A stretch of 36,682 nt of DNA, taken from contig JAADDJ010000044.1 in the NCBI GenBank assembly GCA_013153965.1, forward strand, positions 1 through 36,682. The letters run 5' to 3'. Shown here in pieces: positions 1 through 36,682 of this stretch. Origin of the DNA: Thermotogae bacterium. GTDB taxonomy: Bacteria > Hydrothermota > Hydrothermia > LBFQ01. The notes under the pieces are model-generated. The model saw only the letters and a list, made by a program, of their open reading frames with translations. It was not told where the DNA came from and ran no database searches. Each line of letters opens with the position of its first letter. Positions within the stretch are counted from its first letter, which is position 1. The position numbers and the translations under genes are program-made.

Positions 1-2
1 AA

Positions 3-125
3 GGCTCGCGTGAGGTTGAGGCGGAGTTGGACGCGCACGTGGAGAGGGCCATCGGAGAACGTCGTTATAGGAGCGACCGCCGTATAATATCCTCCCTCTT
101 CGGAGGGCGGTTAGCTCAGCGGTGA
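3..125 (+). CDS. C-terminal fragment of an upstream gene (partial, unknown product); possible overlap with the tRNA
   Basis: Frame 3 reads ..SREVEAELDAHVERAIGERRYRSDRRIISSLFGGRLAQR* with the codon style of neighbouring genes (GTTGAG, AGG, ATA). The TGA at 123-125 lies inside the tRNA. Confidence 0.4.
   Translation, partial: GSREVEAELDAHVERAIGERRYRSDRRIISSLFGGRLAQR
83..88 (+). promoter_or_regulatory. -10 box TATAAT upstream of tRNA-Val
   Basis: Exact TATAAT, 16 nt before the tRNA 5' end. Confidence 0.55.
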
Positions 126-177
126 GAGCACCGGTCTTACAAACCGGGGGTCGGAGGTTCGAATCCTCCACCGCCCA
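105..177 (+). tRNA. tRNA-Val (anticodon UAC)
   Basis: 73-nt cloverleaf: acceptor GGGCGGT/ACCGCCC, D-arm GCTC/GAGC, anticodon stem CCGGT/ACCGG with loop CTTACAA, T-arm GGAGG-TTCGAAT-CCTCC, discriminator A; CCA not encoded. Confidence 0.95.
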
Positions 178-180
178 CTT

Positions 181-888
181 CTAACCTTTCTCTTTGGGCT
201 CAAGCGTCTTGGCCACCCAGATACTCACCTCAAACAGCGCTATCAGCGGCAGCGACATGAGCAGAAGGCTGAACATATCCACCGTGGGCGATATGACGGC
301 CGTTAGGATAACTATCGCAACGATTATCTCCCTCCTCCTCCTCTGAAGGAGGCGGGAGCGCACTATCCCCAACTTGGCCAGTATGCCGACGGCCACCGGG
401 AGCTCAAAGACGACGCCGAAGATCACCGTACTCCAGAAGACGAAGTTTAAGTACTGGTTGGCATTCACCATCGTGGTGAAACCTTCGGAGAAGGATAGGA
501 GGAACTTCACGGCCCGCGGTATTATCACGAATATGGACATTAGTGCGCCGCCGTAGAAGAGGATTAGGGCACTAAGCAGGACGAGGGCGGCGGCCCTCTT
601 CTCATGCGGATACAGGGCAGGCTCAACGAAGCGCCATATCTCCCATAGGAAGTAAGGGAAGGTGAAGAATAGGGCCGCCATGAAGGCCACCTTCAACCTT
701 ACGAAGAAGGGGTCCTGAACGTTGAAGAGGTAGAGCTCGCCCACGGGTTTTGAGATGAAGTCCATTATTTGGCTGTGAAAGAACCACATGATAGCGACGG
801 CCAGAAGATACACGATTATGGCCCTTATGAGCCGAACCCTAAGCTCCTCAAGATGGGGGATCCAATCCTCCCAGCGCCAGCCTTCCAT
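181..888 (-). CDS. tatC: Sec-independent protein translocase TatC
   Basis: HLEELRVRLI, PFFVRLKVAF, FEPALYPHEKR-type and FGVVFELPVAV motifs; about 6 TM segments. Confidence 0.93.
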   Translation of the reverse strand: MEGWRWEDWIPHLEELRVRLIRAIIVYLLAVAIMWFFHSQIMDFISKPVGELYLFNVQDPFFVRLKVAFMAALFFTFPYFLWEIWRFVEPALYPHEKRAAALVLLSALILFYGGALMSIFVIIPRAVKFLLSFSEGFTTMVNANQYLNFVFWSTVIFGVVFELPVAVGILAKLGIVRSRLLQRRRREIIVAIVILTAVISPTVDMFSLLLMSLPLIALFEVSIWVAKTLEPKEKG

Positions 889-889
889 C

Positions 890-1858
890 TCAAACTCCGG
901 ACAGGAGCTGGAGGATCTCCACGGCGTTCGTGGCGGCTCCGCGACGCAGATTATCCGCGACCACCCAAGCGCTCAGGAGCCGAGGGTTGTCCGGATGGAA
1001 TCGGAGACGTCCCACGAAGACCTCATCCCTACCCTCAACGTCCATGGGCGTTATGTAATCCTCTCCGAGGAGAATCAGCCCGGGGAAATCTCGCAGGACC
1101 TTATAGACGTCCTCTATGGGAGGAGCACTGTCAAGGAGAACATGGACGGCCTCGCTGTGCCCCACCTTGACCGGCACCCTCACGGCCGTGGGATTTACGG
1201 GGATGTCGGCGTGGAGGATCTTACGGGTCTCGTTTATCATCTTCCACTCCTCCGTGGAGTATCCCTCCCTGAAGTCCCCTATCTGGGGGATGACGTTGCG
1301 ATGTATCCTCTTGGCGAAGGGGGTGTGGTCGTAGAATCCCCCATCCTCCTCCGCCTCAAGGGCGAAGATGCCGCGATAACCCGCCCCGGACACCGCCTGA
1401 AAGGTCACCACATTGACCTCCTCTATGCCGAAGGCATCCAGGAGAGGTTTTAGGAATATGACCATCTGGATGGTTGAACAGTTGGGGTTGGCTATTATCC
1501 CTTGGTGTTCGTGCGCGTCCTGCGGATTCACCTGGGGAACCACCAGGGGGACCCTCTCGTCCATCCTGTAGGCCGAGGAGTTGTCAATGACGACGGCCCC
1601 CTTGCTGACGAAGACGGGGGCGTAAGCGCGGGCCGCGTGGGAGCCCGCCGAGAAGAGGGCGAAATCAACCTCCGGAATCCCCTCCTCAACGTCCAGCACC
1701 CTGTACTCCCTTCCGAAGAAGGTGATGCTCTTCCCCGCGGACCTCCTGGTGGCCATCGGGAAAAGCTCTATGGGGATCTTCGGAGCCACCCGCTCCTCCA
1801 ACACCCTGAGCATAGTGTCGCCGACCAATCCGGTCGCTCCTACTACCGCTATTCGCAA
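890..1858 (-). CDS. asd: Aspartate-semialdehyde dehydrogenase
   Basis: VVGATGLVGDTMLRVLEER, NPNCSTIQM, VSGAGYRG motifs; TTG start. Confidence 0.95.
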   Translation of the reverse strand: MRIAVVGATGLVGDTMLRVLEERVAPKIPIELFPMATRRSAGKSITFFGREYRVLDVEEGIPEVDFALFSAGSHAARAYAPVFVSKGAVVIDNSSAYRMDERVPLVVPQVNPQDAHEHQGIIANPNCSTIQMVIFLKPLLDAFGIEEVNVVTFQAVSGAGYRGIFALEAEEDGGFYDHTPFAKRIHRNVIPQIGDFREGYSTEEWKMINETRKILHADIPVNPTAVRVPVKVGHSEAVHVLLDSAPPIEDVYKVLRDFPGLILLGEDYITPMDVEGRDEVFVGRLRFHPDNPRLLSAWVVADNLRRGAATNAVEILQLLSGV

Positions 1859-1866
1859 GATACTCT

Positions 1867-1872
1867 ATTCTA
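1867..1872 (-). promoter_or_regulatory. -10 box TAGAAT for asd
   Basis: 8 nt upstream of the TTG start at 1858. Confidence 0.5.
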
Positions 1873-1914
1873 AGCGTGAAGGGGTAGGACTGGAACGGAG
1901 GGGCAGAACGGGTA

Positions 1915-1920
1915 TAGAAT
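1915..1920 (+). promoter_or_regulatory. -10 box TAGAAT (within TATAGAAT) for the barrel/TPR gene
   Basis: 14 nt upstream of the ATG at 1935; divergent to the asd promoter. Confidence 0.4.
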
Positions 1921-1934
1921 TAAAAGGTAAAAAT

Positions 1935-3536
1935 ATGGGTTTTGTATTCTGGTATCTCGGGAACGGAGCGGAATACACGGTGGAACCTAAGAGCTTGGGG
2001 ATGTTCCACCGGGAACACTTCGTCGGTTTCCGGCAGGAGGAGATTACGATAACCACCGACCGCCTCGTCCTCAACCTGAAGGGGGGGTACATAACCGGCA
2101 TAGAGAGGACGGACGATTACGGGCGCGTCGTCGGGGACTACGACGCCACATTCACGGGACTGAACGTCATATACATGAATGCCCCCCTAACGTCGTGGGG
2201 ATGGACATTCGGCGTTGGGCCGGGAGTCCTCCTGTCCAAGATTTACGATGCGACCGATTACGCCATAACGTTGAATGCGATGGTTATGGGAAGGCTTGAG
2301 AGCGGGGAGGTCCTCGTGAGTATCCAGAACGTGGGATACGGCAGCACCCTACCCACACCCGAGCTGTACATTCGGGGCATAACCTACAACCAGAACTTCA
2401 AATTCGGCCCCTTCGTGCGCCTCTTCGGGGACAGGGACTTGGACGGTGGCTTCATATTCAAAATGGACCTTTCGCCTCTGGAGATGCGGGTCTCCCCCTC
2501 GCTCCGAAACACTCTGGCGGGTATGTCCTTGGAGGTGGGACCTCTGGAATTCTCCTACGACTATGAGTACTACTGGATAGGGTACTCCACCCACCGGATC
2601 GGCCTCGTGGTATCGTGGGGCAGGCAGAGGGCCTTGGAGGAGCAGTTGCGTGAGCATGAGCGCAGGCTCAAGGAGCACGAGAGACGCATAGCCTATCAGG
2701 AGCGGGAGATTAAACGGTTGAAGACGAAGATATCCGCGCTGGAGAACAAGGCGCGGGAGTACGCCCAGAATCTGGTGAAGCAGGCCGAGGCGACGGAGGA
2801 TCCCGAGGAGGCTCTGAGGAAGCTGGAGATAGCATACGCCTTTGATACCACCTTGAACGTTGAGGGCAAGATAGAGGCTCTGCGCGAGAGGATAGCGCGG
2901 CGGAAGAAGACCGCCGGCATCCGCAGGGTTGAAACCCTCCTTAAGAATGGTCTGTACTCGGACGCTCTGGCGGAGGCTCTTCTCCTCGTTGAGGAGTTCC
3001 CCGATGATCCCGACGTCCTGAAGATTTACAGGCGGGTGAAGAGGCGGGTTGAGGCGAGTCGGAACTCCAGAACCATAAGCAAGAAGGCCGAGAGCAAGTA
3101 CGTTAAGGGAAAGCTGGAGCGGGCTGAGGAGCTCATCCGCAAGGGAAAGTACGTTGAGGCGGCGAGGATCGTGGCCACGCTCCCAGCCGGTCCGGATAAG
3201 GTGAGGCTTCTAAAGCGCCTGCAGAAGGCCTCTGACGTCTTCGTTGAGAAGGCCAAGTACTACATAGAGCGGGAGGAGTGGGCGAGGGCGAAGTACTACC
3301 TTGAGAAGGCCCTGAAGATATATCCCAATCCGGAGGCCACGAGCCTCCTCTCTTACGTTGAGAGCCGCATAAAGAAGAGCGCCCATCTCCACTACATACG
3401 GGCCTTGGAGCTCTACCAGAAGGGGGATATAGTCGGAGCCTTCGCCCACATAAAGGAGGCCTACCTCCTTGATCCCAAGAACGAGCGGTACCGCGGCGTA
3501 TATTACAGGCTTAAAAACGCTCTGGAGGAGAAATGA
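1935..3536 (+). CDS. PorV/PorQ(UPF0164)-like outer-membrane barrel fused to coiled coil and C-terminal TPR region
   Basis: N-terminal amphipathic beta-rich region ending LEVGPLEFSYDYEYYWIGYSTHRIGLVVSWG, then heptad-rich EEQLREHERRLKEHERRIAYQEREIKRLKTKISALE, then TPR-like helices. The ORF-track start at 1722 is antisense to asd, so ATG 1935 is preferred. Confidence 0.6.
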   Translation: MGFVFWYLGNGAEYTVEPKSLGMFHREHFVGFRQEEITITTDRLVLNLKGGYITGIERTDDYGRVVGDYDATFTGLNVIYMNAPLTSWGWTFGVGPGVLLSKIYDATDYAITLNAMVMGRLESGEVLVSIQNVGYGSTLPTPELYIRGITYNQNFKFGPFVRLFGDRDLDGGFIFKMDLSPLEMRVSPSLRNTLAGMSLEVGPLEFSYDYEYYWIGYSTHRIGLVVSWGRQRALEEQLREHERRLKEHERRIAYQEREIKRLKTKISALENKAREYAQNLVKQAEATEDPEEALRKLEIAYAFDTTLNVEGKIEALRERIARRKKTAGIRRVETLLKNGLYSDALAEALLLVEEFPDDPDVLKIYRRVKRRVEASRNSRTISKKAESKYVKGKLERAEELIRKGKYVEAARIVATLPAGPDKVRLLKRLQKASDVFVEKAKYYIEREEWARAKYYLEKALKIYPNPEATSLLSYVESRIKKSAHLHYIRALELYQKGDIVGAFAHIKEAYLLDPKNERYRGVYYRLKNALEEK

Positions 3537-6500
3537 TGCTGGCGATTCTGATATCGGGTGTGTATCTGACCTCACGTCTGAATGCGGGAGAGGGGAAGGC
3601 GGCCACCCTCCTATCCGACGGCAGTTTCCTCGTCGCATCCTACTTGACCTCCTCAACTCTCACCCAGATAGACTCCCTCGGTCGGCCGATCCTTAGCGTA
3701 TCATTGCCTACAAGTTTTGAAGTTCTGAAGCGTCTGCGCTCCTACGGGGATGCCGTGTGGGGCGTGTCCGACTCCGCCTTCATTAGGATAATGTGGCCCG
3801 ACTCCGCTCTGGCCATAAATATGGCCACGTGGCCTTATCTGGATGAGCCTCTGGACGTTCTTCCGGTGAGCGGGGACTCGGCCATATTCGTGATTTACGA
3901 CTACTTGGGGATGGGAGGCGAGTATAAACTCCTCCTCTGGGACGGTAGTACGTTCTCCAGAGTGATATCAACGGGTATAAGCTCAATCCGGAACGTCGGG
4001 GCCGTGTTCCCCACCGTTGATGGTATCCTCGCCATCCTCTACGAGGATACCGTCTCCATGCACGTCATAAACTTTGACCCCAATTTGAACGAGATATGGA
4101 GCGCCGAGATTGAATTCTCGGACGAGTACTATCTGGATATCACGGCTCCCCCGAGCGCCGTATCCCTACCCTCCGGGAACGTGCTCGTCGCCTTCACCGT
4201 GGATTCCGCGGGATTGGGCCGATGGGCTTACCTCATGTTTGACGCCTCCGGGAACCTTTTGGATGCCAAGATGATGTTCCCGAGCGGCCAGGAGGACTTC
4301 TCCCATCGCCTGATGTACGCGGAGGGCTCCGGAGACGCCATACTCCTCGTCGGTGAGGTCTATGGTGCCGCGGCTTCCGCCGCCGCCGTCCTTCTGGATA
4401 CCTCCGGAGCACCCCTGAAGTCCGTGAATCTCTTGAGCGCCGCGAGCGCCGTATGGGCATCGTCGGGGCCGTACGGATACACCATCGTAGGCTCTGATCC
4501 CTCCAGCATCCTCTTCTACCGGCAGACTCCCGGCCTCGGTCCCTGCGATACCCTCGCATTCTCCCTCTACGTTGCCGACCTCCCCGTATCCACGGGTGGC
4601 ATAGACACCCTATGGGCGTCCATGTACTCTTCGTACTCCCTCCACGAGGAAGTGCTTACACCCCAGAGCCTTCCCTCCTACTCCCTCCTGTGCAGCGACA
4701 CCTTGAGGGTTGATACCGTACCGCCAACGGTCGTGGGCACGTACCCGCCTAACGGCGCCACGGGCGTGCCGGAGACCACGACCATATCGGTAGCCTTCAG
4801 CGAGCCCATAGACACCACCACCTTCAACGCATCCAACGTTAGCCTGAGTGCGAGCATCCCCTACAGCACCCACTGTCCCACCGATTCCATATGCCAGATC
4901 ACCCACTCCCCCTTCCCTCCGGGAGTGAGCGTCTCCGTCTCCCTATCCTCCGGTATAACGGACCTCGCATCCAACCCTCTCACGCCCTACTCCTTCGCCT
5001 TCCAGGTGGCCGCCGCGCCTCCGCCCGCGGACACGCCCCGTGTCATCCTAACCTCACCCGACAGCGGCGAGATAAACGTGCCCCTGAACGCGAACATAGG
5101 CGTGTGGTTCTCAACCGAGATAGATACCCTGACACTCAACACATCCACCGTCAGCATATGGGGTTGGGATGGGGACAGCACCGTGGTATATACCTTCACG
5201 AGGACGTGTCCCACCACCCTCTTCTGCGTCCTTGACCCCTCGCCCCTATTCCGCCCGAGGGAGATGGTGAGCATTCATTTTTCGGATGGCATACTGGACC
5301 GCTCCGGCGCCATCCCTCTGATACCCAAGACCGTAATCTTCTGGACGCAGGAGGTTGATACCCTTCGCCCCGTGATCGTATTCACCGTTCCGGACAGCGG
5401 GGCCACGGGCGTTCCCACCAACACCAACGTGGGTGTCCAGTTCTCAAGGGATATGGACACCACGACCATACCGGGGAACGTGCTCATCACCGGCAGCATC
5501 TCGGGAACCCACTCCTACTCGGTCTCATGTCCCACCTTGGACTACTGTGTCCTGAATCCGTTCCCTGACTTCGCGATAGCCGAGACCGTGAGGGTGGAGT
5601 TCTCGGACGCCATAACGGATATTGACGGACGAAATCTGGTCCCCAAGACAGTTGAGTTCCAGACGGGGGGCGGAGAGGATAACATCCCTCCGACGGTTGA
5701 GATAATCGCGCCGGCCAACGACACCATCATCACCTACACCAACGGCGAGATAATCCGCGCGTACGTATCCGACGGTGGGAACGGCATACAGAGGGTTGAT
5801 TGGGTCCTCGGCAGCCAAACCTACAGCGCACCCACCAACTGCGAGGGGGCCCTATACCTTGACCCCGACACATCCTGCTTCACTATGCCCGACCTGCCGG
5901 GTGGGGTCTATCTGGTGAAAGCCTTGGCCTTTGACAGAAGCAACAACGTGGCCTACGATAGCGTATGGGTCTCCCTGAACGATACGACCTCCCCCTACGT
6001 CATATTCACCGAGCCGTCGGACGGTGCGGTCGGAGTCTCGCCCCACACCGATATTCGGGTGGTATTCTCCGAGAGTATGGACACCACCGTCTCCGGAAAC
6101 GCGACCATCTCCGTGGGTACGACCGAATACGCCCACACTCAACTGTGGGAAGATGACCACACCCTCGTGCTGGATCCCACCGACGCCTTCCCGTACGACA
6201 GTACCGTCGTGGTGTCCTTGGACTCCTTCGTGGATATAGCCGGCAACTCCATGGTACCCTACACCTTCTCCTTCCGCATAGTCCCCAACGCATCCGTGAT
6301 CGCCAGAATTATTACCGTCAGTCCCGAGACCCTGTACGTGGGGGCGGAGGATAGCGTCCTCGTGCGCGGCGTCGTCTCATCTACGTATCCGATAACGGGC
6401 GCGGAACTCCTCCTTGACGGCACCACATCCTTCCCCATGCGGGCCGAGGATGGGGCCTACGATGAGGTGGAGGAGACGGTATCCGTGAGGATATACACGC

Positions 6501-6856
6501 AGGAGGAGGGCACCCATACCCTCGTCCTAAGGGGTAGGAACGCGTACGACTACGGCGACTCTCCCGCGGCCACCCTCTACGTCCTGAGGATCCCATTCCT
6601 CAGCGACGATAACGTGATCATCTATCCCAACCCGACCAGAGGGCAGGCCAAGGTCAAATTCGTCCTCGGAGGGGACGCGCAGGTGGTTCTGGAGGTCTTT
6701 GACCTGAAGGCGCGCAGGGTCTTCTACCGGACCGACCTGTTTGAGGGATACACTCCCCACGTCATAGACCTTCCGCAGCTACCCCCCGGCCTGTACCTCC
6801 TACGGCTGAAGGCCAAGGATAAGAAGGTTGAGAAGTGGTTCTCGGTGATCAGGTAG
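3533..6856 (+). CDS. Large secreted protein: beta-propeller-like N-terminus, SbsA/Big_5 Ig-like repeats, T9SS type A-like C-terminal sorting domain
   Basis: Repeats of (P)SDGAxGVPxxTxIxVxFSexxDTxT; C-terminus IIYPNPTRGQAKVKFVLGG..VVLEVFDLKARRVF..LPPGLYLLRLKAKDKKVEKWFSVIR. Confidence 0.82.
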   Translation: MMLAILISGVYLTSRLNAGEGKAATLLSDGSFLVASYLTSSTLTQIDSLGRPILSVSLPTSFEVLKRLRSYGDAVWGVSDSAFIRIMWPDSALAINMATWPYLDEPLDVLPVSGDSAIFVIYDYLGMGGEYKLLLWDGSTFSRVISTGISSIRNVGAVFPTVDGILAILYEDTVSMHVINFDPNLNEIWSAEIEFSDEYYLDITAPPSAVSLPSGNVLVAFTVDSAGLGRWAYLMFDASGNLLDAKMMFPSGQEDFSHRLMYAEGSGDAILLVGEVYGAAASAAAVLLDTSGAPLKSVNLLSAASAVWASSGPYGYTIVGSDPSSILFYRQTPGLGPCDTLAFSLYVADLPVSTGGIDTLWASMYSSYSLHEEVLTPQSLPSYSLLCSDTLRVDTVPPTVVGTYPPNGATGVPETTTISVAFSEPIDTTTFNASNVSLSASIPYSTHCPTDSICQITHSPFPPGVSVSVSLSSGITDLASNPLTPYSFAFQVAAAPPPADTPRVILTSPDSGEINVPLNANIGVWFSTEIDTLTLNTSTVSIWGWDGDSTVVYTFTRTCPTTLFCVLDPSPLFRPREMVSIHFSDGILDRSGAIPLIPKTVIFWTQEVDTLRPVIVFTVPDSGATGVPTNTNVGVQFSRDMDTTTIPGNVLITGSISGTHSYSVSCPTLDYCVLNPFPDFAIAETVRVEFSDAITDIDGRNLVPKTVEFQTGGGEDNIPPTVEIIAPANDTIITYTNGEIIRAYVSDGGNGIQRVDWVLGSQTYSAPTNCEGALYLDPDTSCFTMPDLPGGVYLVKALAFDRSNNVAYDSVWVSLNDTTSPYVIFTEPSDGAVGVSPHTDIRVVFSESMDTTVSGNATISVGTTEYAHTQLWEDDHTLVLDPTDAFPYDSTVVVSLDSFVDIAGNSMVPYTFSFRIVPNASVIARIITVSPETLYVGAEDSVLVRGVVSSTYPITGAELLLDGTTSFPMRAEDGAYDEVEETVSVRIYTQEEGTHTLVLRGRNAYDYGDSPAATLYVLRIPFLSDDNVIIYPNPTRGQAKVKFVLGGDAQVVLEVFDLKARRVFYRTDLFEGYTPHVIDLPQLPPGLYLLRLKAKDKKVEKWFSVIR

Positions 6857-8084: not shown

Positions 8085-8660
8085 TCAATCCTCCAGATCC
8101 CTGTAGGTGAAACTATCCACGGTGTAGTACTTGACCACCGTCCGGGGATCCTCATACACGCTCGGGGGCAGGCCGGCCTTTCGGGCCAGCTCCACGAGGA
8201 ACTGAACGGGGTCCGGAATACTCTCCCACACCTGCGGTAGGAAGGTGGCCCGGCCCGATGGATGCTCAAGGATGAGACCCATGCCCGGGGAGATCTTCCT
8301 GACCAGGTCCTCAAAGTTCTCGTAAGGTAGGATCTTAGGCTCGGAGAGTACGCTCACCTCAACCTCCACGTAGGGCCACTCCTCGGGCTGCAGAGGGGGG
8401 AAGCGGGGGTCCCTGAAGGCGGCGGCTATGGCGTTGTAATGCACGTCCTCGGCCAAAGGTCTATGGGCCTCCACGCTACCTATACAACCTCGCAGATTTC
8501 CAAACTTCGTGAGGGTGACGAAGCTGGCCCCCTTCTCCCGAAGGCGGGGGGGGAGGAGGCTGATGTCCGGAGGAGTCAGATCCCCCCTGAAGGCCCGGGA
8601 TATGGCCGAGTGGGCTATATCCAGAAGCAGTTTCTTCTCCTCGCGAGTCAGCGGCTTCAT
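8085..8660 (-). CDS. AMMECR1-domain protein (AmmeMemoRadiSam protein A-like)
   Basis: FVTLTKFGNLRGCIGSVEAHRPLAEDVHYNAIAAAFRDPRFPPL..VEVSVLS..GMGLILE..ATFLPQVWE. Confidence 0.93.
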   Translation of the reverse strand: MKPLTREEKKLLLDIAHSAISRAFRGDLTPPDISLLPPRLREKGASFVTLTKFGNLRGCIGSVEAHRPLAEDVHYNAIAAAFRDPRFPPLQPEEWPYVEVEVSVLSEPKILPYENFEDLVRKISPGMGLILEHPSGRATFLPQVWESIPDPVQFLVELARKAGLPPSVYEDPRTVVKYYTVDSFTYRDLED

Positions 8661-8670
8661 TTCACAGTGA

Positions 8671-8676
8671 ATTGTA
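8671..8676 (-). promoter_or_regulatory. -10 box TACAAT for the AMMECR1 gene
   Basis: 10 nt upstream of ATG 8660. Confidence 0.45.
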
Positions 8677-8709
8677 AGGGCGAAGGGGGGCGTTGGCTTC
8701 TTTCCGGTC

Positions 8710-8715
8710 TATAAT
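8710..8715 (+). promoter_or_regulatory. -10 box TATAAT
   Basis: 14 nt upstream of GTG 8730. Confidence 0.45.
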
Positions 8716-8729
8716 AGCCTACCTACGGT

Positions 8730-9407
8730 GTGGAAATCCTGAAGATACTTCTCGTCCTCCTGATGCTCGTACTCGCCGGGGTATCCCCCATACTGCGGGA
8801 AGTTTTCATAAACTACGCGTACGCCAGCGGGGCCGTGGTCATGCTGGGAGCCTTCTTCATATCCCTGCGGAACGGTCGCATATACGAGAAGGTGTGGGGA
8901 TTCGGTTTCCTATCGCTGGCCATACACCACTCTCTCAACCTCATTGAGAATCTCTCCATCCTCCCCTTCGTGGGGGACGTCTTCTACATGCTCTTCTACC
9001 TCCTGATGTTCGCCGGGAACCTCATACATCTGTGGGAGTCCCGCTCCACGTGGTTCCTGTCGCTCGTCATGGTCCTCTCAATAGCCTCACTCTTCGGAGC
9101 CCTCACCGCCGCCGTCTCCCTCCCGGCCTTCCGCGATACGCAGGTGGCCTCCTTCTTCAACGTCTTCTATCTCCTCTTCTCGGCCGTCATAACCTTCTCA
9201 ACCTTGAGATCCGCCCTCTTTGATAGGGCTTGGATACTCCGCACCCTCGCCTTCGGCATATTCACCCTGTCCGAGGTGTGGTTCATGGAGTGGCTCTATC
9301 TCGGGGTCAATCCTCCCGACCCCTCCGTGATGTGGCTCGGCGTGGTGATGCTGGCTGTCCTCTCCCAGAAACCCGTGGATAGACGGATGAGGGTCGTGCG
9401 ATTTTAG
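8730..9407 (+). CDS. Multi-pass membrane protein of unknown function (225 aa)
   Basis: ORF with about 7 hydrophobic segments, GTG start; no family recognised. Confidence 0.7.
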   Translation: MEILKILLVLLMLVLAGVSPILREVFINYAYASGAVVMLGAFFISLRNGRIYEKVWGFGFLSLAIHHSLNLIENLSILPFVGDVFYMLFYLLMFAGNLIHLWESRSTWFLSLVMVLSIASLFGALTAAVSLPAFRDTQVASFFNVFYLLFSAVITFSTLRSALFDRAWILRTLAFGIFTLSEVWFMEWLYLGVNPPDPSVMWLGVVMLAVLSQKPVDRRMRVVRF

Positions 9408-9410
9408 AAT
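9405..9410 (+). promoter_or_regulatory. -10 box TAGAAT for the osmC-like gene, containing the upstream stop codon
   Basis: TAG stop of the 8730 gene plus AAT; 9 nt upstream of the in-frame ATG at 9420. Confidence 0.4.
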
Positions 9411-9845
9411 ATGCGCATCATGGATATCAAGCGGGCCGTGTTGCGCATGGAGGGAGATACATTCAACGTGGAGATCCCCTCCGGAAACGTGAGGATAGGA
9501 AAGGGTGCTCTGGCCCCCATGGAGCTCATGCTGGTGGCCGTAGGCGGATGCACCGCCATGGACGTTCAGTACATCCTGCGGAAGATGCGCTACGACTTTC
9601 AGATGGAGGTCGTCGTTGAGGGAAGCAGGAGGAAGGAGCATCCGAAGATATACGAGAGGATAACCATCACCTACAATGTGGAGGGAGACGTCCCCCAGAG
9701 GGCGGTGGAGCGGGCCGTGGGCCTGTCGCTAACCAGATACTGCTCCGCCACGGCCATGATATCGGCTACGACGGACATAGAGTACGTTATCGTTCTGAAC
9801 GGACAGGAGGTGAAGCGTGGCCAGAAGAAACCTCTGGAAGGTTAA
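9411..9845 (+). CDS. OsmC family protein
   Basis: GALAPMELMLVAVGGCTAMDVQYILRKMR..., VEGDVPQRAVERAVGLSLTRYCSATAMI; true start may be ATG 9420. Confidence 0.88.
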   Translation: MRIMDIKRAVLRMEGDTFNVEIPSGNVRIGKGALAPMELMLVAVGGCTAMDVQYILRKMRYDFQMEVVVEGSRRKEHPKIYERITITYNVEGDVPQRAVERAVGLSLTRYCSATAMISATTDIEYVIVLNGQEVKRGQKKPLEG

Positions 9846-10665
9846 AGATAAGGATCTAGACGTCTCCGACACCCTGATAATGGGCATCCTCAACATAACC
9901 CCCGACAGCTTCTATGACGGCAGCAGGTTGTCGGGTGTTGATGGGGCCTTGAGGAGGGCGGAGAGGATGTTGGAGGAGGGGGCGATGCTGCTGGACATCG
10001 GAGGCGAGAGCACGAGGCCCGGGGCCGATCCCGTACCCTTGGAGGAGGAGATACGTCGGGTGGTGCCGACGGTTGAGGCCATCGCGAGGACCTTTCCCGA
10101 CGCCGTCATATCCGTGGATACCTACAAGTCGGAGGTGGCCAGACGCTCCGTGGAGGTCGGAGCCCACATAATAAACGACATAAGCGGAGGCACGTTTGAC
10201 CCGGACATACTTAAGGTGGCCGCCGAGTACGGGACCGGAATCATCCTCAACCACATAAGGGGGAAGCCCAAGGACATGCAGCGGAATCCCCACTACGACG
10301 ACGCGCCCGCGGAGGTCCTCCGGGAGCTGATGGACAGGGTGGCGAGAGCCAAGGACTTCGGGGTGCCAGACGAGAGCATATGCATAGACCCGGGTATAGG
10401 CTTCGGGAAGCGTCTGGAGGATAATCTCCGTCTCATAAAGGCGGCCGATAGATTCGTCGCGAGCGGCTACGTGGTCCTCTACGGGGTATCCCGCAAGAGC
10501 TTCATAGGTATGGCCCTCGGATACGACGACCCTGCCGACCGCCTCTACGCTACGCTGGGCGTCCATGCCTACCTCTATCTCAAGGGCGTGCATGTGCTTA
10601 GGGTACATGACGTTCGGGAGACGGCGGACGTCGTAGGGATAATCCGCCACATAGAGCGCTCTTAG
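9817..10665 (+). CDS. folP: Dihydropteroate synthase
   Basis: MGILNITPDSFYDGSRL, LLDIGGESTRPGADPV, ISVDTYKSEVAR, INDISGG, GIGFGKRLEDNL, GVSRKSFIG. Confidence 0.96.
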   Translation: MARRNLWKVKDKDLDVSDTLIMGILNITPDSFYDGSRLSGVDGALRRAERMLEEGAMLLDIGGESTRPGADPVPLEEEIRRVVPTVEAIARTFPDAVISVDTYKSEVARRSVEVGAHIINDISGGTFDPDILKVAAEYGTGIILNHIRGKPKDMQRNPHYDDAPAEVLRELMDRVARAKDFGVPDESICIDPGIGFGKRLEDNLRLIKAADRFVASGYVVLYGVSRKSFIGMALGYDDPADRLYATLGVHAYLYLKGVHVLRVHDVRETADVVGIIRHIERS

Positions 10666-10939: not shown

Positions 10940-12926
10940 GGAGTATCTCGTGGGATCTGAAGAGTTGGTCGTAGGGGATGGGCGGTCTCCCCTCCCTAAG
11001 ACCTTCAAAGAGGGCATCCAACATACCCCTCTGCCCCTTATCCACGGTTGAGGTCCGGAATCTCCTACCGTCTATGGTGGTTATGCGGAAGTCGGAAATT
11101 ATGGCCGTCTTTCCGGAGGCCATCACCTCCACCCGCTCCTTCTCCCCGTACTTGGAGCCTTCGGTCGCGTAGAGGATGGTGGCCACGGAGCCGTCCGCCC
11201 ACGTGAGCATGACCGCCCCACCCTCTCCCGAGGGCACGACCTCCCAAGCGGTGGGTATTCCTCCCACGGCCAGAGCGTAATCTACGAAGTGTATCCCCTC
11301 ACCCACGAGCCTTCCTCCCTCACGGTGTATCCAGTGGTCCTTAGGCAGGGGGCCCGCATCCACCCTATAGACCATCTGGAAGGGCCTCCCCATCTCGGAT
11401 AGGAGTCGGCGGGTGTGGGGGGAGAAGCGGCGGTTGAATCCCACGCTTAGAAAACCCCTCACATCCTCCAGAACCCTCCTGACTTCCATCAGATCGTCGT
11501 AGGTGATGGCGAGCGGCTTTTCGCAATGGACGGCCTTGCCGGCCTCCAGCGCTTCAACCACTATGCGGGCGTGGGTCGCGTGCCTCGTGAGGACAAAGAC
11601 CAGGTCCACCTCGTCCATGCGCAGGATCTCCCGATAGTCGGTAGCGTATATGGGGAATCCCCAGATGTCGGCGGCGGACTTGGCCGTATGCCCTCGGGAT
11701 GTGGCCACGGCGAACAGTTGCACGTCCTTTCTGCCCTTCAGGTGTGGCAGTATGAAGCCTTGGGCGTAGGAGCCCGCCCCTATCAGGGCCACGTTGAAGA
11801 CCCCCTTTCTCCTCGGGGGAAGCTTGGATATATGAACCCTCTTGAGATTCGGCTCCCCGGGATATTTCAGGACCACCCCCACGAAGGGCTCCCTGCCCGA
11901 GGTGATGAGCTCGTAGGCCTTCGGCGCCTCATCCACGGGGAACTCGTGGGTTATCAGCGATGACAGGTCCAACTTATCCTCCTCCACCAACCGCACGACG
12001 TACTGGAGATTCCTCTCCTCGGTCCATCTCACGTATCCCGGAGGGTAGTCGTGGCCCAACTCCTCGTATGTGGGGTCGTATCTTCCCGGTCCGTAGGAGC
12101 GGCTCACGAGGAGGGAAACCTCCTTGTAGTAGAAATCCTTCCAAGGGAAGTCGTAGTTGGCGGGTGCTACCGCCACCACCTTACCCCTATCCCTCACGGC
12201 CCTTCCGGCCAGCCTAACGACCGCTCCGCTCCGGTCCGGCGCCGCTATGAATACGACGTCGTAGGCGTCGGTATCGGGCTTTGAGGGGGTTCGCACCCCA
12301 CCCCGGGAGGCCACCTCCCTCCGGAAGGGGTCAAGGTCGGTCGCATATACATCTACGTCCCATATTCGCAGGAGGCGGGCTATTATCTGACCCACCACTC
12401 CCAGCCCCACCACCAGAGCCCTCTCTCCGGGTTGAATCTCCGCTCTGCGTACCGCGTGGAGGGCGACCGATGCTATGGCCCCCAAGGACAGCTCACGCAT
12501 CCTGTCCTCCCTCGTCGCCTTCACGACGAGCCTGTGGGGGACGCTCACGACCTCCATATGGTGGGCGTACTGGCCTCCGACCGCGACGACCGGCTCTCCC
12601 CGCTTGAAGGGGCCGGAGTCCTCAAGGACCACGCCGGAGATGCTGTACCCGAGAGGCGAGAGGGCCTGCGCCCTACTCCGGGCCTTGTGATAGACGAAGA
12701 GGGGCCCGAAATCCTTGACCATGGCCAGCAGCTTCATCACGTCCCCACCCCTCTCCCGCAGAATCTTTACGGGGGATTTGGCCAAGGATACCGTGTGGCC
12801 CTCCGTACCGACACTTATGGCCGAGTAAAGGACCTTTATCAGGACCCTACCCGGCTGGGGAGGCGGAGGGGGCACCTCCTCAACGACCACCTTCCTCTTG
12901 GCTATACTGTAGAAAACGCCCTTCAC
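10926..12926 (-). CDS. Bi-domain oxidoreductase: zinc-type MDR dehydrogenase fused to Gfo/Idh/MocA
   Basis: N-terminal ALVVGLGVVGQIIARLLRIWDVDVYATD (MDR); C-terminal NVALIGAGSYAQGFILPHLKGRKDVQLFAVA..VHCEKPLAITYDDLMEV (Gfo/Idh/MocA). Confidence 0.88.
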   Translation of the reverse strand: MKGVFYSIAKRKVVVEEVPPPPPQPGRVLIKVLYSAISVGTEGHTVSLAKSPVKILRERGGDVMKLLAMVKDFGPLFVYHKARSRAQALSPLGYSISGVVLEDSGPFKRGEPVVAVGGQYAHHMEVVSVPHRLVVKATREDRMRELSLGAIASVALHAVRRAEIQPGERALVVGLGVVGQIIARLLRIWDVDVYATDLDPFRREVASRGGVRTPSKPDTDAYDVVFIAAPDRSGAVVRLAGRAVRDRGKVVAVAPANYDFPWKDFYYKEVSLLVSRSYGPGRYDPTYEELGHDYPPGYVRWTEERNLQYVVRLVEEDKLDLSSLITHEFPVDEAPKAYELITSGREPFVGVVLKYPGEPNLKRVHISKLPPRRKGVFNVALIGAGSYAQGFILPHLKGRKDVQLFAVATSRGHTAKSAADIWGFPIYATDYREILRMDEVDLVFVLTRHATHARIVVEALEAGKAVHCEKPLAITYDDLMEVRRVLEDVRGFLSVGFNRRFSPHTRRLLSEMGRPFQMVYRVDAGPLPKDHWIHREGGRLVGEGIHFVDYALAVGGIPTAWEVVPSGEGGAVMLTWADGSVATILYATEGSKYGEKERVEVMASGKTAIISDFRITTIDGRRFRTSTVDKGQRGMLDALFEGLREGRPPIPYDQLFRSHEILLTES

Positions 12927-14467
12927 CTGGCCACGCTAACCGCTCGTATCTCCCTTATCACGATGACGCGGATCTGCCCGGGATATTGGAGCTCGTTCTC
13001 TATGGCCCGAGCTATCTCCTCCGACAGGGCCCGAGCCTCCAAATCCGAGACCTTATCGGCATCTACTATCACCCGTATCTCACGGCCCGCGTAGAGGGCA
13101 TAGACCTTTTGAACGCCGGGGAACCTGTAGGCTATACGCTCAAGGTCCTGAAGCCGCTTTATGTACTGCTCTATGCTCTCCCTCCGGGCACCGGGACGGG
13201 CGCCGGATATGGCGTCGGCCGCCGCCACCAGGGGAGCTATCAGGGTCATCGGCTCAACGTCCCCGTGATGGGACGCGATGGCATTGACCACAGCCTCCTT
13301 CTCGCCGTAGCGCTTGGCCACCATCGCCCCGACCAGAGCGTGGGGACCCTCCTCCTCCTCAACCACCTTACCTATATCGTGGAGCAGTCCCGCCCTTCGG
13401 GCGTCCTCAACGTTTAAACCCAACTCGGCGGCCATTATCCCGGCGAGCTTGGCCGTCTCAACCGAGTGGGCCAGCAGATTCTGGCCGTAGGATGTGCGGA
13501 ACTTCATCTTACCTACGAGCTTCACCAGCTCCGGATGCATGTAGGAGATCTCCAGGTCCACCAATGTCTCCTCCCCTATCTTCCGGATGTGCTCGTCAAA
13601 CTCCTCCTCCACCTTCCTCGCCACCTCCTCTATGCGGGCGGGATGTATCCGCCCATCCTCTATCAACCTCTCCAGTATCACCCGGGCCTTCTCCCGACGC
13701 AGGGCATCAAACGAGGAGATGACCACTATCTCGGGGGTGTCATCTACTATCAGCTCAACGCCGGTTATGGCCTCAAAGGCCCGAATGTTCCTTCCCTCAC
13801 GTCCGATTATCCTTCCCTTTATCTCCTCCGATGGGAGCTCAACTATGGTGGTGGTGACTTCGGCCGTTCGGGAAGCGGCGCACCTCTGGATGGCCGTCGC
13901 TATTATCTCGCGAGCCTCCTCCTCGGCCCTCTGACGGGCCTCGTCCTTTATCTTTATGGACAGCTGGGCGGCCTCAAGGCGAGCGAGACGCTCCACCCTC
14001 CGCATGAGCTCCTGCTTGGCCTCGTCGGTGGTCATGCGGGATATCTCCTCCAGCTTGGCCAGAAGCTCGTTCTCGGCGTTCTTAACCCGATTCTCCCTCT
14101 TGAGCAGCTCCCCCTCCTTCTGGCGCAGCTCCCTCTCCAGACGACGTAGATTCTCCTCCTTACGGCGCAGCCGCTCCTCCTCCTCCCGAAGCTGATTCCG
14201 CTGCCTTGAAATCTCGTGTTTCTTGCGTGAAATTTCGCTGTGCAGTTTCCTCTGCTCCTCCTCTATCTTCCTCTTGGCCGATGATATTATCCTGTCGGCC
14301 TCCTTCCTCGCCTCGGTAATGTGCTTCTCCTTGAGCCTCTCCACCTCCTCCTTGGCCAACCTCATCGTCTCCTCGTATCTGCGTTTCGCCAACAAAAGAC
14401 CCACGAGGGCGAAGATTGCCCCCAAGATGATTCCCAAAATTATCCAAACGATTCCTGCCGACATCAT
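12923..14467 (-). CDS. rny: Ribonuclease Y
   Basis: N-terminal TM, long coiled coil, KH (IKGRIIGREGRNIRAFEAITGVELIVDDTPE), HD domain (AGLLHDIGKVVEEE); AGGAGGTAA SD. Confidence 0.96.
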   Translation of the reverse strand: MMSAGIVWIILGIILGAIFALVGLLLAKRRYEETMRLAKEEVERLKEKHITEARKEADRIISSAKRKIEEEQRKLHSEISRKKHEISRQRNQLREEEERLRRKEENLRRLERELRQKEGELLKRENRVKNAENELLAKLEEISRMTTDEAKQELMRRVERLARLEAAQLSIKIKDEARQRAEEEAREIIATAIQRCAASRTAEVTTTIVELPSEEIKGRIIGREGRNIRAFEAITGVELIVDDTPEIVVISSFDALRREKARVILERLIEDGRIHPARIEEVARKVEEEFDEHIRKIGEETLVDLEISYMHPELVKLVGKMKFRTSYGQNLLAHSVETAKLAGIMAAELGLNVEDARRAGLLHDIGKVVEEEEGPHALVGAMVAKRYGEKEAVVNAIASHHGDVEPMTLIAPLVAAADAISGARPGARRESIEQYIKRLQDLERIAYRFPGVQKVYALYAGREIRVIVDADKVSDLEARALSEEIARAIENELQYPGQIRVIVIREIRAVSVAR

Positions 14468-22100: not shown

Positions 22101-23230
22101 GCCATTACGAATGTGGCACTCTCAACGGAATCTACGAACTCCTCCAGACTGACGTCCCTCACCGGTACGTCCATCTCGCAAAGGGAATCGTACGGGAGCT
22201 CCGGCGGGAGGTGGGCCGCCATCTCCGACACGTGGGTGCAGGCGTCGTTGTCCAGAATGAATTTGGAGGCGAACAGTTGAACGTTGGGGGGGAAGGGGAA
22301 TCGGTAGTGGCTCTCGTAGTACTCTATACGCCTGACGGCATCGTAGGCCTCGGAGAGGGTATTGACCGGTATCCTACCGACGGCCACGTCCAGCCACAGG
22401 TCCAAACTGTCGGTGAATTGGCCGAAGGACCAGTCCCCGTTGGCATTCCAATCCCCGTCCATACTCCCGTAGTACGCGTCCGTCGTAATGTGGGTTCCGT
22501 AGTCGTAGGGCCAGTAGGAGGGCATGTCTATGTCGGGGGCGGGTACGTGGGACTCGTCCCCCCCTATCAGCAGGAATCTGACTCCCCACGTCCCGTAAAG
22601 GTACCGCACGAAGTTCCTTATGCGCTCGTAGGGCGTTCTGCCGGGAAAGCTTTTCGCCTCATCAACCGTGAAGACGGCCGTCCTTATACCCGTCAGGTTC
22701 TTGAACTCCGCCAACGAATCAAAGGCCGGCTTCAGAGCCTCCGTCGTAAGGATGACCAGGTCTAAACTGTCGGCTCCCGGCATGGAGATGGAGGCCGGTC
22801 CGGCTCCTCCCACCACATCAACGTCAAGGACTATGCGACGATTTCTGTAGAATCTTTCGCCGTCTGACGTTATCTCAAACGCCACCACGGTGGCCACCTT
22901 CTTACCCCTGTACCACCCGTACCTGACCATCACAGGGGAGCGGGGAGTGGGTATGGGCTCGTCCGGATAGGGACGTCCGGTGAGCAGTCCCGTGGGGGAC
23001 GGATAGAGCTCCGGCGAGATTTCCTCGCGCTCGGTGGATACGACCCGAACGCTCAGGGACTCGCCCGGGGCGAGTAGGTACCTGAGGACCTTGACGGCGC
23101 TTACGGGTCTCTTGGGGACCTGCAGCTTGGGAGACTCCTCGGAGAATCCCACCACCACGGTAGTTAGAAGGAGAAACATGATGACGGCTCCTATTTTAAC
23201 GGAGAACGGTTGCCCCCTTAAAATCCCCAT
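19154..23230 (-). CDS. Gingipain-like (peptidase C25) secreted protease with FG-GAP-like repeats and T9SS-type C-terminal domain
   Basis: FLLIGGDESHVPAPDIDMPSYWPYDYGTHITTDAYYGSMDGDWNANGDWSFGQ..VAVGRIPVNT; candidate catalytic His (AFSHSN) and Cys (MGCLVNAP); GDIDGDGDYEIVFG repeats; C-terminus LKIYTVAGREVKRF..LPRGVYVVVVEIPQGTRRFKVILR. Start could instead be ATG 23179. Confidence 0.85.
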   Translation of the reverse strand: MGILRGQPFSVKIGAVIMFLLLTTVVVGFSEESPKLQVPKRPVSAVKVLRYLLAPGESLSVRVVSTEREEISPELYPSPTGLLTGRPYPDEPIPTPRSPVMVRYGWYRGKKVATVVAFEITSDGERFYRNRRIVLDVDVVGGAGPASISMPGADSLDLVILTTEALKPAFDSLAEFKNLTGIRTAVFTVDEAKSFPGRTPYERIRNFVRYLYGTWGVRFLLIGGDESHVPAPDIDMPSYWPYDYGTHITTDAYYGSMDGDWNANGDWSFGQFTDSLDLWLDVAVGRIPVNTLSEAYDAVRRIEYYESHYRFPFPPNVQLFASKFILDNDACTHVSEMAAHLPPELPYDSLCEMDVPVRDVSLEEFVDSVESATFVMAFSHSNYQTFLVNIDSTAVPFLLQHIPLLNTDSTPPLWIHMGCLVNAPTTNSINVMLYKWGKVIASYGPSRESSPGAAIPLVGEGFRMAFGDTTDFYAGMIDLYGKHFIASIGYYFSYVYEALSYNLVGDPSLRLYRETPLPSSPSATLLGDTLSVVGAPPEALITLMQGGRILGRWHADASGSLSVSVEGLAPEPLKVGIYRRGYLPTVLTVPAPGFPNVRYSFPDVALAGDTLHIEGYVLTGGAGIDVKLVFVGEGPLGADTLIVPAVGDSIGFHLRVPVGRFAGETKLVGYLTCSPCGLSDTLFLVGRGPMLRFIGAKMEDDSTLNLLLLNEGAVASDSIRATFVGGTITPTYLQPASPIPPQEVGSLRVALPRSLSEGDILRFTFYDGFGDTVDATIIVPDSLPSARLTWSAPGDGYVRVMWDGDWESSLVEVDTGTGWRVLAVRPGGWGFVEDGYDGWDVRCYRVLPVVGGIVGQPGPVVCNRPNPPEVFVRDVPFAGYRAHLLAADIHPSPGYELVVPSVYNYLSVFSADGRLLWRYSVDTLPSITEISAPPAVGDIDGDGDYEIVFGIAGDSPRLLALGADGSLEWSVSLPDVPIGPVVLGLFRGGSTIPDVAVKMADFVRFYDGHGNLIGNCGPYVWADEYMSAGDISGDGRWELVVRGDVAGSQIVVLNSDCEDTTILLPNITYVGTRIYDADGDGDWELLANGFGNAITIDLRAGRMDSTPIAVVPRADVVMPVEWDGTPGWEFAYMDMYDFAVSDGDGTVLYAHHDDIHPRGRRFVGGDVDGDGREEVFFSTGRSVLFGKTHHGDLMGFPIVLGHEDRYREEVVQGGPLLYDLDGDGKVELCAHTSGHHLYCWKLGSSTGVGWPMVRGNRWNSGFPALEMPDTLITSTHEGEDERPFVSVVPEGDALRVEGWNRGALRLKIYTVAGREVKRFTLGTHGEFSVLVPVALPRGVYVVVVEIPQGTRRFKVILR
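23219..23224 (+). promoter_or_regulatory. -10 box TAAAAT for the nitrilase gene
   Basis: 7 nt upstream of GTG 23232. Confidence 0.4.
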
Positions 23231-23231
23231 C

Positions 23232-24038
23232 GTGCGATTCAAGGTGGCCGTAGCCCAGTTCCGGCCCGTCCTCGCCGACGTTCGGGCCAATCTGAAGCGA
23301 CATCTGGAGCTGATTGACAGAGCCGTATCCGAGGGGGCCCATCTGGTGGTGTTCCCGGAGTTGAGCCTCACGGGATACCTCCTCGGCTGGCTCGTGCCTC
23401 AGGTATCCGTCAGGAGGGAGGAGCCCCTATGGGAGGAGATGGTGAGGCACCTGAAGGGGGCCGTGGCCGTCGTGGGTGCCGTCCTTGAGGAGAGGGATAT
23501 GTTCTACAACGCCGCCGTCGTCCTCTCATCCGAGGGGATATTGGGAATACACCGCAAGGTCTATCTGCCCACCTACGGGATGTTTGACGAGGGAAGATAC
23601 TTCTCCGCCGGCCACTCCTTTGAGAAGATCCCCACCCCCTTGGGGGAGATGGCCCTCATGATATGCGAGGACGCTTGGCACATGGACGCGTACTTGAGCC
23701 GGGCCGACGCGGACCTTTTCGTCCTGATAGCCAACAACCCCCTGCGGGTGGTTCAGGATGCGTCGGCCGTTGAGGTTTGGCATCGTCTATCCTCGCTACC
23801 CCCAACGTTTTTCGGATCTCCGGCGGTCTATGCCAACCGCGCGGGCGTGGAGGATGGGATAATCTTCTTCGGAGGATCAAGGATATACGAGGGGAACGGT
23901 GCGGTTATGGCCGAGGCTCCGCTGTTTGAGGAGGGCCTGATCTTCGCTGAGATTGATACCGATATACGAAGGGCCGCCAGGTACAACTCGGCCACCCTGC
24001 GGGAACATCTCAACTATGCCCTCCGGAAAGGTTCATGA
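23232..24038 (+). CDS. Carbon-nitrogen hydrolase (nitrilase superfamily)
   Basis: FKVAVAQFRPVLADVRANL, LVVFPELSLTGY (Glu), HRKVYLPTYGMFDEGRYFSAG (Lys), MALMICEDAWH (Cys). Confidence 0.92.
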   Translation: MRFKVAVAQFRPVLADVRANLKRHLELIDRAVSEGAHLVVFPELSLTGYLLGWLVPQVSVRREEPLWEEMVRHLKGAVAVVGAVLEERDMFYNAAVVLSSEGILGIHRKVYLPTYGMFDEGRYFSAGHSFEKIPTPLGEMALMICEDAWHMDAYLSRADADLFVLIANNPLRVVQDASAVEVWHRLSSLPPTFFGSPAVYANRAGVEDGIIFFGGSRIYEGNGAVMAEAPLFEEGLIFAEIDTDIRRAARYNSATLREHLNYALRKGS

Positions 24039-30818: not shown

Positions 30819-30845
30819 CTCCCGGAGGCGGGCCGAGGTCGTCCG

Positions 30846-30851: not shown

Positions 30852-30878
30852 CCCCAACCGTGTTAAAGGAGGGGATCC

Positions 30879-34855: not shown

Positions 34856-34861
34856 CGTTTT

Positions 34862-34867
34862 ATTATA
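34862..34867 (-). promoter_or_regulatory. -10 box TATAAT for the SDH_sah-type protease gene
   Basis: 6 nt upstream of ATG 34855. Confidence 0.5.
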
Positions 34868-34897
34868 ATCGCGAAAGACGAAGCGGTAGGGCTTGCA

Positions 34898-36649
34898 TCA
34901 GTCCATCCTATCGGGGGCCTCAACCCCGAGGGCGTTCAGGCCGAGCTTCACGGTGTGCATCACCGCCTCGGAGAGGGTGAGACGCTGTCCCTGACGGGGA
35001 GCTCCCACTATACGGTTGTTCTGATAGAAGCGGTGGTAGGTGTGGGCCAGCTCTATCAGGTAATCTACCAGAAGGTTGGGCGAAAACTGGCCGGTAGTCC
35101 CGGATGTGCTCGGCAGGCCCATGGACGCGAACACCCCCTCGCGCAGGTTTAGGGGAACGGTCTTTATGAGGTAGTAGGGGAGATACTGGACGAGGGCGGC
35201 CACGTCCCTCTCCTCGCCTAAGGGGGCACCCATCGGTTGAGGCTCGGCACCGTTCGCCTCGGCGTAGTCCAGAAGGCTCCTTATTCGGGCGTGGGCGTAC
35301 TGGGTGTAGAAGACGGGATTCTCCTTGACGGCCTTCTTCGCCAAGGTCAGGTCAAAGTTGAGCTCTGTCTGGGGAGCGCGCAGGAGCATGAAGAATCTGA
35401 CCGCATCCTTTCCCACCTCGTCCATAAGGTCGTCTAAGGTGTATATGCGTCCCGCCCGTTTGGACATCCTAACCCTCCTGCCCTCCTCATAGAGATTGAC
35501 CTGGCCGGCGATTATCACGTCGTACGTGGCTTCCCTGCCCGTCGCCTCCATGAAGGCCCGCATCACGGCCTTCATCCGTGGTATGTACCCGTGATGGTCG
35601 GGGCCGAAGATGTCGTATATGTATTCGTAACCGCGAAGGAGTTTGTAGAGATGGTACGCCGCATCCCAGAAGAAGTACGTGGGCTGACCGTTTGACCTCA
35701 CCACCACCCTATCCTTATCGTCGCCGTAGAGGGTGGATTTGAAGTACAGGGCCCATCCGGGGTACCTGTACGTGCCGCCGTCGTACAGGTCCGAGAGGCT
35801 CGGAGGCACCTCGTGGGAGATCTCCCCGTGGCCGTCTTGGAAGTAGAGGAGATTCATACGGCGGAGGATGGCGTAGGTCCTCTCCGGGTACTCGGACTTC
35901 CTTATCCACGACTCATGGACGAAGTTATCGTAGTGTATGCCGTACCTTCTCAAGGTCTCTTTCTGGAGCTGGAGGATGCGATGGGCGACTTTGCGACCGA
36001 ACTCTTCGGCCTCCGTGAGGCTCAGTTGGGTGGGTCCCTTAGCCAGCAGGGGGGCGGCCTCCGATACGAACTCTCGGGCCAGCTCCCTCACGTAGTCGCC
36101 ACGGTATCCGTCCTCGGGCATGGGGAACTTGTCCGGAGCGATGAAGTGGAGGATGGAGAGGCCGAGATTGACTATCTGCATCCCCGCGTCATTTACGTAG
36201 TATTCGCTCTCGGCATCGTATCCTAAAAGTTTCAGTATCCGCACTATGCTGTCGCCCACGGCCCCGGCCCGGGCGTTGGCCACGTTCAAGGGTCCGGTCG
36301 GGTTGGCCGATATGAACTCCACCAGTATTCTGACTCCGCTCTTGGGGAATAGACTCTCCCACCGCCCCCGCGCCACCTCGTCGGTCCATCCTCCGAGCGC
36401 CTCGTCTTCCATGCGAAAGTTTATATAGCCTCCGGCTACGCTCAAGGAGAATCTGCCCTTCAGATGGGGCTCCACGCTCTCGGCCATCTCTTGGGCTATC
36501 TTCGGGGGAGGCTGCCTTCGCTCCCTCGCGAGTTTGAAGGGGGCGTTGGTGGTGAAGTCTCCGAATTTGGGATTCTGGGTGCGCTCAACCTCAACGGGTC
36601 CGACCCTCTCCCTCAAGGTTCTCTCCAAGGTGATGTAGGCTCCTCTCAT
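34898..36649 (-). CDS. argS: Arginyl-tRNA synthetase
   Basis: NPKFGDFTTNAPFKLA, EFISANPTGPLNVANARAGAVGDSI, YYVNDAG, RMSKRAGRIYTLDDLMDEVGKDAVRFFML, YAHARIRSLL. Confidence 0.95.
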   Translation of the reverse strand: MRGAYITLERTLRERVGPVEVERTQNPKFGDFTTNAPFKLARERRQPPPKIAQEMAESVEPHLKGRFSLSVAGGYINFRMEDEALGGWTDEVARGRWESLFPKSGVRILVEFISANPTGPLNVANARAGAVGDSIVRILKLLGYDAESEYYVNDAGMQIVNLGLSILHFIAPDKFPMPEDGYRGDYVRELAREFVSEAAPLLAKGPTQLSLTEAEEFGRKVAHRILQLQKETLRRYGIHYDNFVHESWIRKSEYPERTYAILRRMNLLYFQDGHGEISHEVPPSLSDLYDGGTYRYPGWALYFKSTLYGDDKDRVVVRSNGQPTYFFWDAAYHLYKLLRGYEYIYDIFGPDHHGYIPRMKAVMRAFMEATGREATYDVIIAGQVNLYEEGRRVRMSKRAGRIYTLDDLMDEVGKDAVRFFMLLRAPQTELNFDLTLAKKAVKENPVFYTQYAHARIRSLLDYAEANGAEPQPMGAPLGEERDVAALVQYLPYYLIKTVPLNLREGVFASMGLPSTSGTTGQFSPNLLVDYLIELAHTYHRFYQNNRIVGAPRQGQRLTLSEAVMHTVKLGLNALGVEAPDRMD

Positions 36650-36658
36650 CTGGCGGCA

Positions 36659-36664
36659 ATTGTA
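36659..36664 (-). promoter_or_regulatory. -10 box TACAAT for argS
   Basis: 9 nt upstream of ATG 36649. Confidence 0.4.
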
Positions 36665-36682
36665 CCGTGGATGGGTGGGGAA

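Follow-up and report, generated by a model that had tools for sequence, protein, structure and literature searches.

What has removed the palindrome TCGA almost completely from the DNA analysed here? The window, by which we mean the whole stretch of 36,682 bases (positions 1..36682), is the entire contig C53 (JAADDJ010000044.1) of a draft genome of 1.53 Mb in 63 contigs (90% complete). Its initial annotation reported one TCGA, at positions 159–162 in a transfer RNA (tRNA) loop, where about 100 or more copies would be expected, and counting bears this out: the window contains exactly one copy, compared with 122 expected from a second-order Markov model, 134 from base composition and 88 by the Karlin/Burge method (Poisson P ~ 1e-51). 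TCGA is the rarest of the 256 tetranucleotides in the window, and its sole copy (159..162) lies in the T-loop (TTCGA) of tRNA-Val(tac), encoded at 105..178 on the forward strand. Our preferred explanation, to which we assign a probability of roughly 55%, is that a type II restriction–modification (R-M) system recognising TCGA, probably the methyltransferase–nuclease pair designated M2–R below, shaped this genome.

Extent of TCGA depletion

The shortfall extends throughout the genome. Within 913 kb sampled from the organism's own genome (G000; stretches L001–L020 and L076–L117), TCGA occurs 42 times against 2,970 expected, and 14 of these copies sit in a single 3.9-kb contig (C32, L087:1-3871) that holds one gene, for a DUF2341 protein, has a normal TCGA density (14 versus 10.6 expected) and is probably mis-binned or foreign. 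With that contig set aside, coding sequences retain about 10 TCGA where codon usage predicts 3,900 (~0.003). The word is under-represented on both strands and in all reading frames, to a similar depth in the three frames (≤1%), with observed and expected counts of 3/503 for TCG|A, 6/3,283 for NTC|GA and 1/152 for T|CGA. Six of the eight sampled members of the family are strongly depleted (TCGA below 0.1 of expectation): the Karlin/Burge ratio is 0.01 in G000, 0.03 in G110 and G084, 0.05 in G114 and G098, and 0.06 in G090. The weaker members G120 and G126 stand at 0.36 and 0.38, and the sister family, represented by G063 (L158, L168–L177) and G086 (L160, L178–L187), is near normal at 0.83 and 0.91. 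Among the genomes sampled, depletion of TCGA marks a single family, and its genome- and family-wide reach supports the earlier suggestion of a genome-wide signature left by an enzyme encoded outside the window.

Erosion has reached even the tRNA genes. The T-loop was at first regarded as functionally constrained, yet it is not untouchable: 16 of the 28 tRNAs in G000 carry TTCAA in place of TTCGA, which the other 12 retain, compared with 4 TTCAA and 26 TTCGA among 30 tRNAs from Clostridia loci and the sister family taken together (P = 0.0007). tRNAs are eroded too where position 57 permits A. Outside the probably foreign contig, 28 TCGA copies survive, 15 of them in tRNA or tRNA-like T-arms (one being that of the transfer-messenger RNA, tmRNA), one in the 5′ portion of the tmRNA (recognised by eye) and one in a spacer of clustered regularly interspaced short palindromic repeats (CRISPR). 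Six of the 13 survivors outside RNA genes lie within GTCGAC (L003:4592, 5962 and 9168; L076:18983; L092:13880; L114:8558), although GTNNAC itself is depleted 9-fold. This excess (P ~ 1e-9 at 1% expectation, 0.0005 at 9%) suggests one adenine under the protection of two methyltransferases; three of the six sites fall in atypical genes of a single contig (L003).

That similar words are plentiful, as the initial annotation held, is only partly true. CTAG, with its sole copy at 9856..9859, is the second-rarest tetranucleotide of the window (1 versus 48–65 expected), GTNNAC (9 versus 82) and GTNAC (6 versus 47) are scarce, and GATC is mildly low (88 versus 131–201). Genome-wide, CTAG occurs 45 times against 1,702 expected and GATC 2,009 times against 4,680. 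CTAG is low across all genomes sampled (0.03 in G000), and GTNNAC and GTNAC reach 0.11 and 0.21 of expectation in G000, with GTNNAC depleted also in G090 and G114. The sister family purges other palindromes, ACGT in G063 (0.02) and GATC in G086 (0.13; 0.05 by Markov, one stretch), and neither PF00145 nor D12 methyltransferases were found in these two genomes.

The organism was placed by its RNase Y gene (12923..14467, reverse strand), the product of which is 84% identical to that of candidate division WOR-3 genomes and 71% to that of Candidatus Caldipriscus T1.2; a search with a fast-evolving protein returned no relatives. On this basis we assign it to a WOR-3/Hydrothermae-like lineage related to Ca. 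Caldipriscus, and its relatives indicate that it is probably heat-loving. The window also includes two very large secreted-protein-like genes, at 19154-23371 (1405 amino acids) and 3533-6856 (1107 amino acids). Elsewhere in the genome, two CRISPR array pieces (L016:22-580 and L111:10200-10558) have a common 30-nt repeat, GTTTGTAGCCTACCTATRAGGGATTGAAAC. The few IMG/VR scans made returned no convincing spacer match, and a match to the TCGA-bearing spacer was dismissed as a chance 20-mer (25/36 bases).

Route of loss

Codons that precede GA record how TCGA disappeared. In the genes of the window, NTC codons occur 0 times before GA and 332 times before other G-starting codons, and NTT codons 142 and 19 times, confirming the codon switch before GAN described in the initial annotation. 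For G000 we compared codon frequencies before GA codons with those before codons starting GC, GG or GT. The paired values are 0.000 and 0.370 for Leu CTC, 0.295 and 0.022 for CTT, and 0.385 and 0.360 for CTG; 0.001 and 0.274 for Ile ATC, and 0.251 and 0.012 for ATT; 0.001 and 0.295 for Val GTC, and 0.463 and 0.046 for GTT; and 0.001 and 0.942 for Phe TTC. T-ending codons, rare elsewhere, have taken the place of the missing C-ending ones and the C+T share is nearly conserved; relatives with normal TCGA (G063 and G086) show the opposite trend before GA. TCGA is lost mainly by C-to-T replacement, into TTGA and TCAA.

We expressed this route as a replacement index, which is 0 when replacement is proportional to the other codons (selection at equilibrium) and 1 when the C+T class is conserved. 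For TCGA the index is 0.96 (confidence interval 0.89–0.99) and 0.63 in G000, 0.87 and 0.92 in G110, and higher in G090, compared with control values of −0.16 and 0.14 for GATC in G000 and −0.18 and 0.11 for TCGA in Thermus pTT27. The idea that the route is unique to TCGA was rejected: strongly depleted ACGT in G063 (1.06) and the outer G of GTNNAC in G000 (0.86) follow it too. For CTAG it is not seen, and noncoding DNA, at 25 kb, is too little to discriminate mechanisms.

Comparison between species indicates continuing exchange at these sites. At Leu CTN|GA sites aligned between G000 and G110, third-base states are about independent (G/G 19, G/T 23, T/T 19, T/G 15), and T/G exchange has therefore come near saturation while TCGA stayed absent. 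This comparison rejects constant selection with TTGA as a fading relic. Between closer species, T–G differences before GA (12/180) are about as frequent as C–G differences before other G-starting codons (13/222; P = 0.84) and exceed G–T differences before those codons (1/132; P = 0.009), all of these being small unpolarised counts from ~12–13 kb per pair, with one genome shared by both pairs. Substitution before GA behaves as if it followed the path G → C → T. Two accounts of the C-to-T route remain, a hypermutable cytosine or a restriction system that was lost and regained more than once, TCGA re-forming in the intervals; as evidence of turnover, M2 is missing from one sister species, and G120 and G126 appear to be recovering.

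Candidate enzymes and competing explanations

The initial annotation offered two mechanisms, a TaqI-like R-M system and methylation of the TCGA cytosine followed by deamination of 5-methylcytosine (5mC), and pointed to a TCGA-specific methyltransferase or endonuclease elsewhere in the genome. Our search of that genome found a candidate pair on contig 62. M2 (L116:858-1601, reverse strand; 247 amino acids) is, from its PF01555 assignment, a clear DNA methyltransferase of the beta-class amino-methyltransferases, and its DPPF motif presumably reflects N6-adenine methylation. It adjoins R (L116:244-861, reverse strand; 205 amino acids), a nuclease-like protein in which a D-x(n)-S-x-K arrangement, conserved among orthologues, is one that we take to resemble PD-(D/E)XK nucleases; R has no informative match in Pfam, NCBIfam, PADLOC or PDB. 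The two genes are adjacent in G000, G114 and G084 and in the distant G031 and G067 (five genomes, three families), an arrangement across families that looks as in mobile R-M pairs.

Other enzyme families gave no better candidate. RE_TaqI (PF09573) is absent from G000, with the positive control Thermus composti detected, as is TaqI_C (PF12950), the M.TaqI-type specificity domain, with three positive controls detected; R-M is favoured, and the candidate for it is a pair different from TaqI. No C5-methyltransferase (PF00145) exceeded the cut-off in 11 genomes, among them all the TCGA-depleted ones (10 positive controls, other taxa), and the sole weak match was set aside as an RlmI-like ribosomal RNA methyltransferase by sequence. 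The deamination proposal thus keeps its strong C-to-T signature into TTGA and TCAA and lacks such an enzyme. D12 methyltransferases were not found in G000, and an N6_Mtase search returned nothing explaining TCGA. The orphan SPPY methyltransferase M1 (L008:1314-2201) does not qualify as the TCGA enzyme: a 72% orthologue occurs in G007, which shares its contig numbering with G063 and where TCGA is normal, and M1 is missing from three depleted genomes. A type ISP/IIG restriction enzyme–methyltransferase (L114:2-2701, reverse strand) is cut by its contig end.

According to the R-M explanation that we prefer, the family would have long carried an orthodox type II system recognising TCGA. M2 would methylate the adenine and R would cut, so that unmethylated TCGA would be at risk of cleavage, and cutting as the selective agent would lead to avoidance in every reading frame; the C-to-T bias could arise if the system were lost and regained time and again, or through hypermutable cytosines. 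We favour avoidance of this kind because all frames are depleted, including T|CGA, where C-to-T creates a stop or an Arg-to-Gln change; because M2 carriage roughly tracks depletion; and because a comparable outcome is seen in Helicobacter pylori, which has a beta-class N6-methyladenine (m6A) enzyme. The GTCGAC survivors are as expected under it, because two methyltransferases would protect the same adenine. Orthologues of M2 occur in G000, G084, G114, G098 and G090, where TCGA is 0.01–0.06 of expectation, and not in G110 (0.03), G120 or G126 (0.36–0.38), giving strong depletion in five of five carriers versus one of three non-carriers. That one, G110, is a 94–95% identical sister of the carrier G084, and its M2 loss is therefore either recent or an assembly gap.

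Several observations weigh against this explanation. The association between M2 and depletion within the eight family genomes reaches only P = 0.11, and more distant M2 carriers have TCGA at only 0.27–0.84. R is broken in G090 (L154 ~8658-8836) and absent from G098 (L155 ~9160-9762), both of which are still depleted, and the GTCGAC excess is not repeated in G090 (0/13). Moreover, constant selection at equilibrium predicts replacement by preferred codons and not by the rare T-ending ones, and this is what GATC in G000 and TCGA in Thermus show. As a separate observation, M2 is intact in both G090 and G098, a pattern of endonuclease decay.

The main rival to R-M avoidance, which we hold to be unlikely but worth serious attention, is mutational and not selective: the TCGA cytosine would be modified, to 5mC or an equivalent, and hot, unrepaired C-to-T change would burn the sites off as TTGA and TCAA. 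It would account for the conserved C+T class in G000, G110 and G090 and its absence from control relatives, for the closer-species rates described above and for the shift of tRNA T-loops from TTCGA to TTCAA. T and G have exchanged to saturation at the NTN|GA sites of G000 and G110, so the pattern cannot be just a relic. Also in its favour, 5mC is held to be heat-labile (PMC8557920); the same source predicts that 5mC is rare in thermophiles. The PF00145 result stands against it, as do the equal loss of T|CGA, where C-to-T is non-synonymous, and the 12 of 28 tRNAs that retain the site. Our confidence in it is lowered further because ACGT in G063 and GTNNAC in G000 share the route, so that several such enzymes would be needed. 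The data do not cleanly separate this mechanism from R-M. A bolder proposal, which we consider improbable, is that the clade burns off short palindromes (TCGA here, ACGT in G063, GTNNAC in G000) by enzyme-linked C-to-T change that does not rely on a known C5-methyltransferase; it would invoke a new cytosine modification, a deaminase or a cytosine-excising restriction enzyme, with its own target mutated thousands of times faster than normal.

We think it very unlikely that the depletion is a relic of an R-M system since lost from the lineage, with TCGA slowly returning. Traces of lost systems have been described (PMC4687349), G120 and G126, which lack M2, look like recovery, and R is decaying in G090; against this, coding TCGA remains at ~0.003 in G000 despite near-saturated synonymous sites relative to G110, and the pressure is therefore present or very recent. 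Chance has no point in its favour, nor has an artefact, whether of composition or confined to this one contig; all are effectively refuted by the probability in the window, by the genome-wide counts, with depletion in all other stretches bar the probably foreign contig, and by its recurrence in public assemblies from other projects.

Significance and known systems

We know of few cells in which a four-letter word has been eliminated so deeply across the whole genome, and this one belongs to an uncultured phylum. Testing C+T constancy codon by codon needs only sequence and helps to tell sites lost through selection from sites lost through mutation; within one genome it gives opposite answers for TCGA and GATC. 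If the C-to-T route is mutational, it bears on the tolerance of modified cytosine in hot-living bacteria. The GTCGAC survivors, for their part, suggest cross-protection between two restriction systems that is legible in the genome itself.

Dcm-type hypermutation induced by 5mC resembles the present case in its C-to-T change at a short methylation-type motif. It differs in that no C5-methyltransferase was found here and in that the C:T odds, judged from codon counts, shift several-thousand-fold; the methylation-induced enhancements described by Cherry in 2018 are said to be tens-fold, far below this. The rarity of CTAG in many bacteria is likewise the near-absence of a four-base palindrome, in G000 as well, but CTAG is low in all sampled genomes without C-to-T replacement, whereas TCGA depletion is confined to a single family. 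The Thermus systems TaqI and TthHB8I (TCGA, m6A) act on the same word in a probably likewise hot-living host; by contrast, pTT27 retains coding TCGA at 0.25–0.30 of expectation with proportional replacement, and the TaqI endonuclease and TaqI_C families are absent here.

The TCGA system of H. pylori (HpyV; M.HpyAX / M.Hpy99VII) is similar both in its near-elimination of the word (TCGA observed/expected 0.05, with GTAC at 0.02 of expectation; PMC3849833) and in its beta-class m6A methyltransferase (PMC3936762), the broad class to which M2, with its presumed specificity, belongs. Here, coding TCGA falls to ~0.003, the host belongs to a thermophile-related candidate phylum and the loss is C-to-T-specific. 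Site avoidance is established for long-lived orthodox type II systems (PMC4687349), and lytic phages show near-elimination of sites more often than hosts do (PMC6286503). The TCGA purge is a very extreme case of a phenomenon known in other bacteria, unusual in its depth, its near-pure C-to-T route and its GTCGAC survivors.

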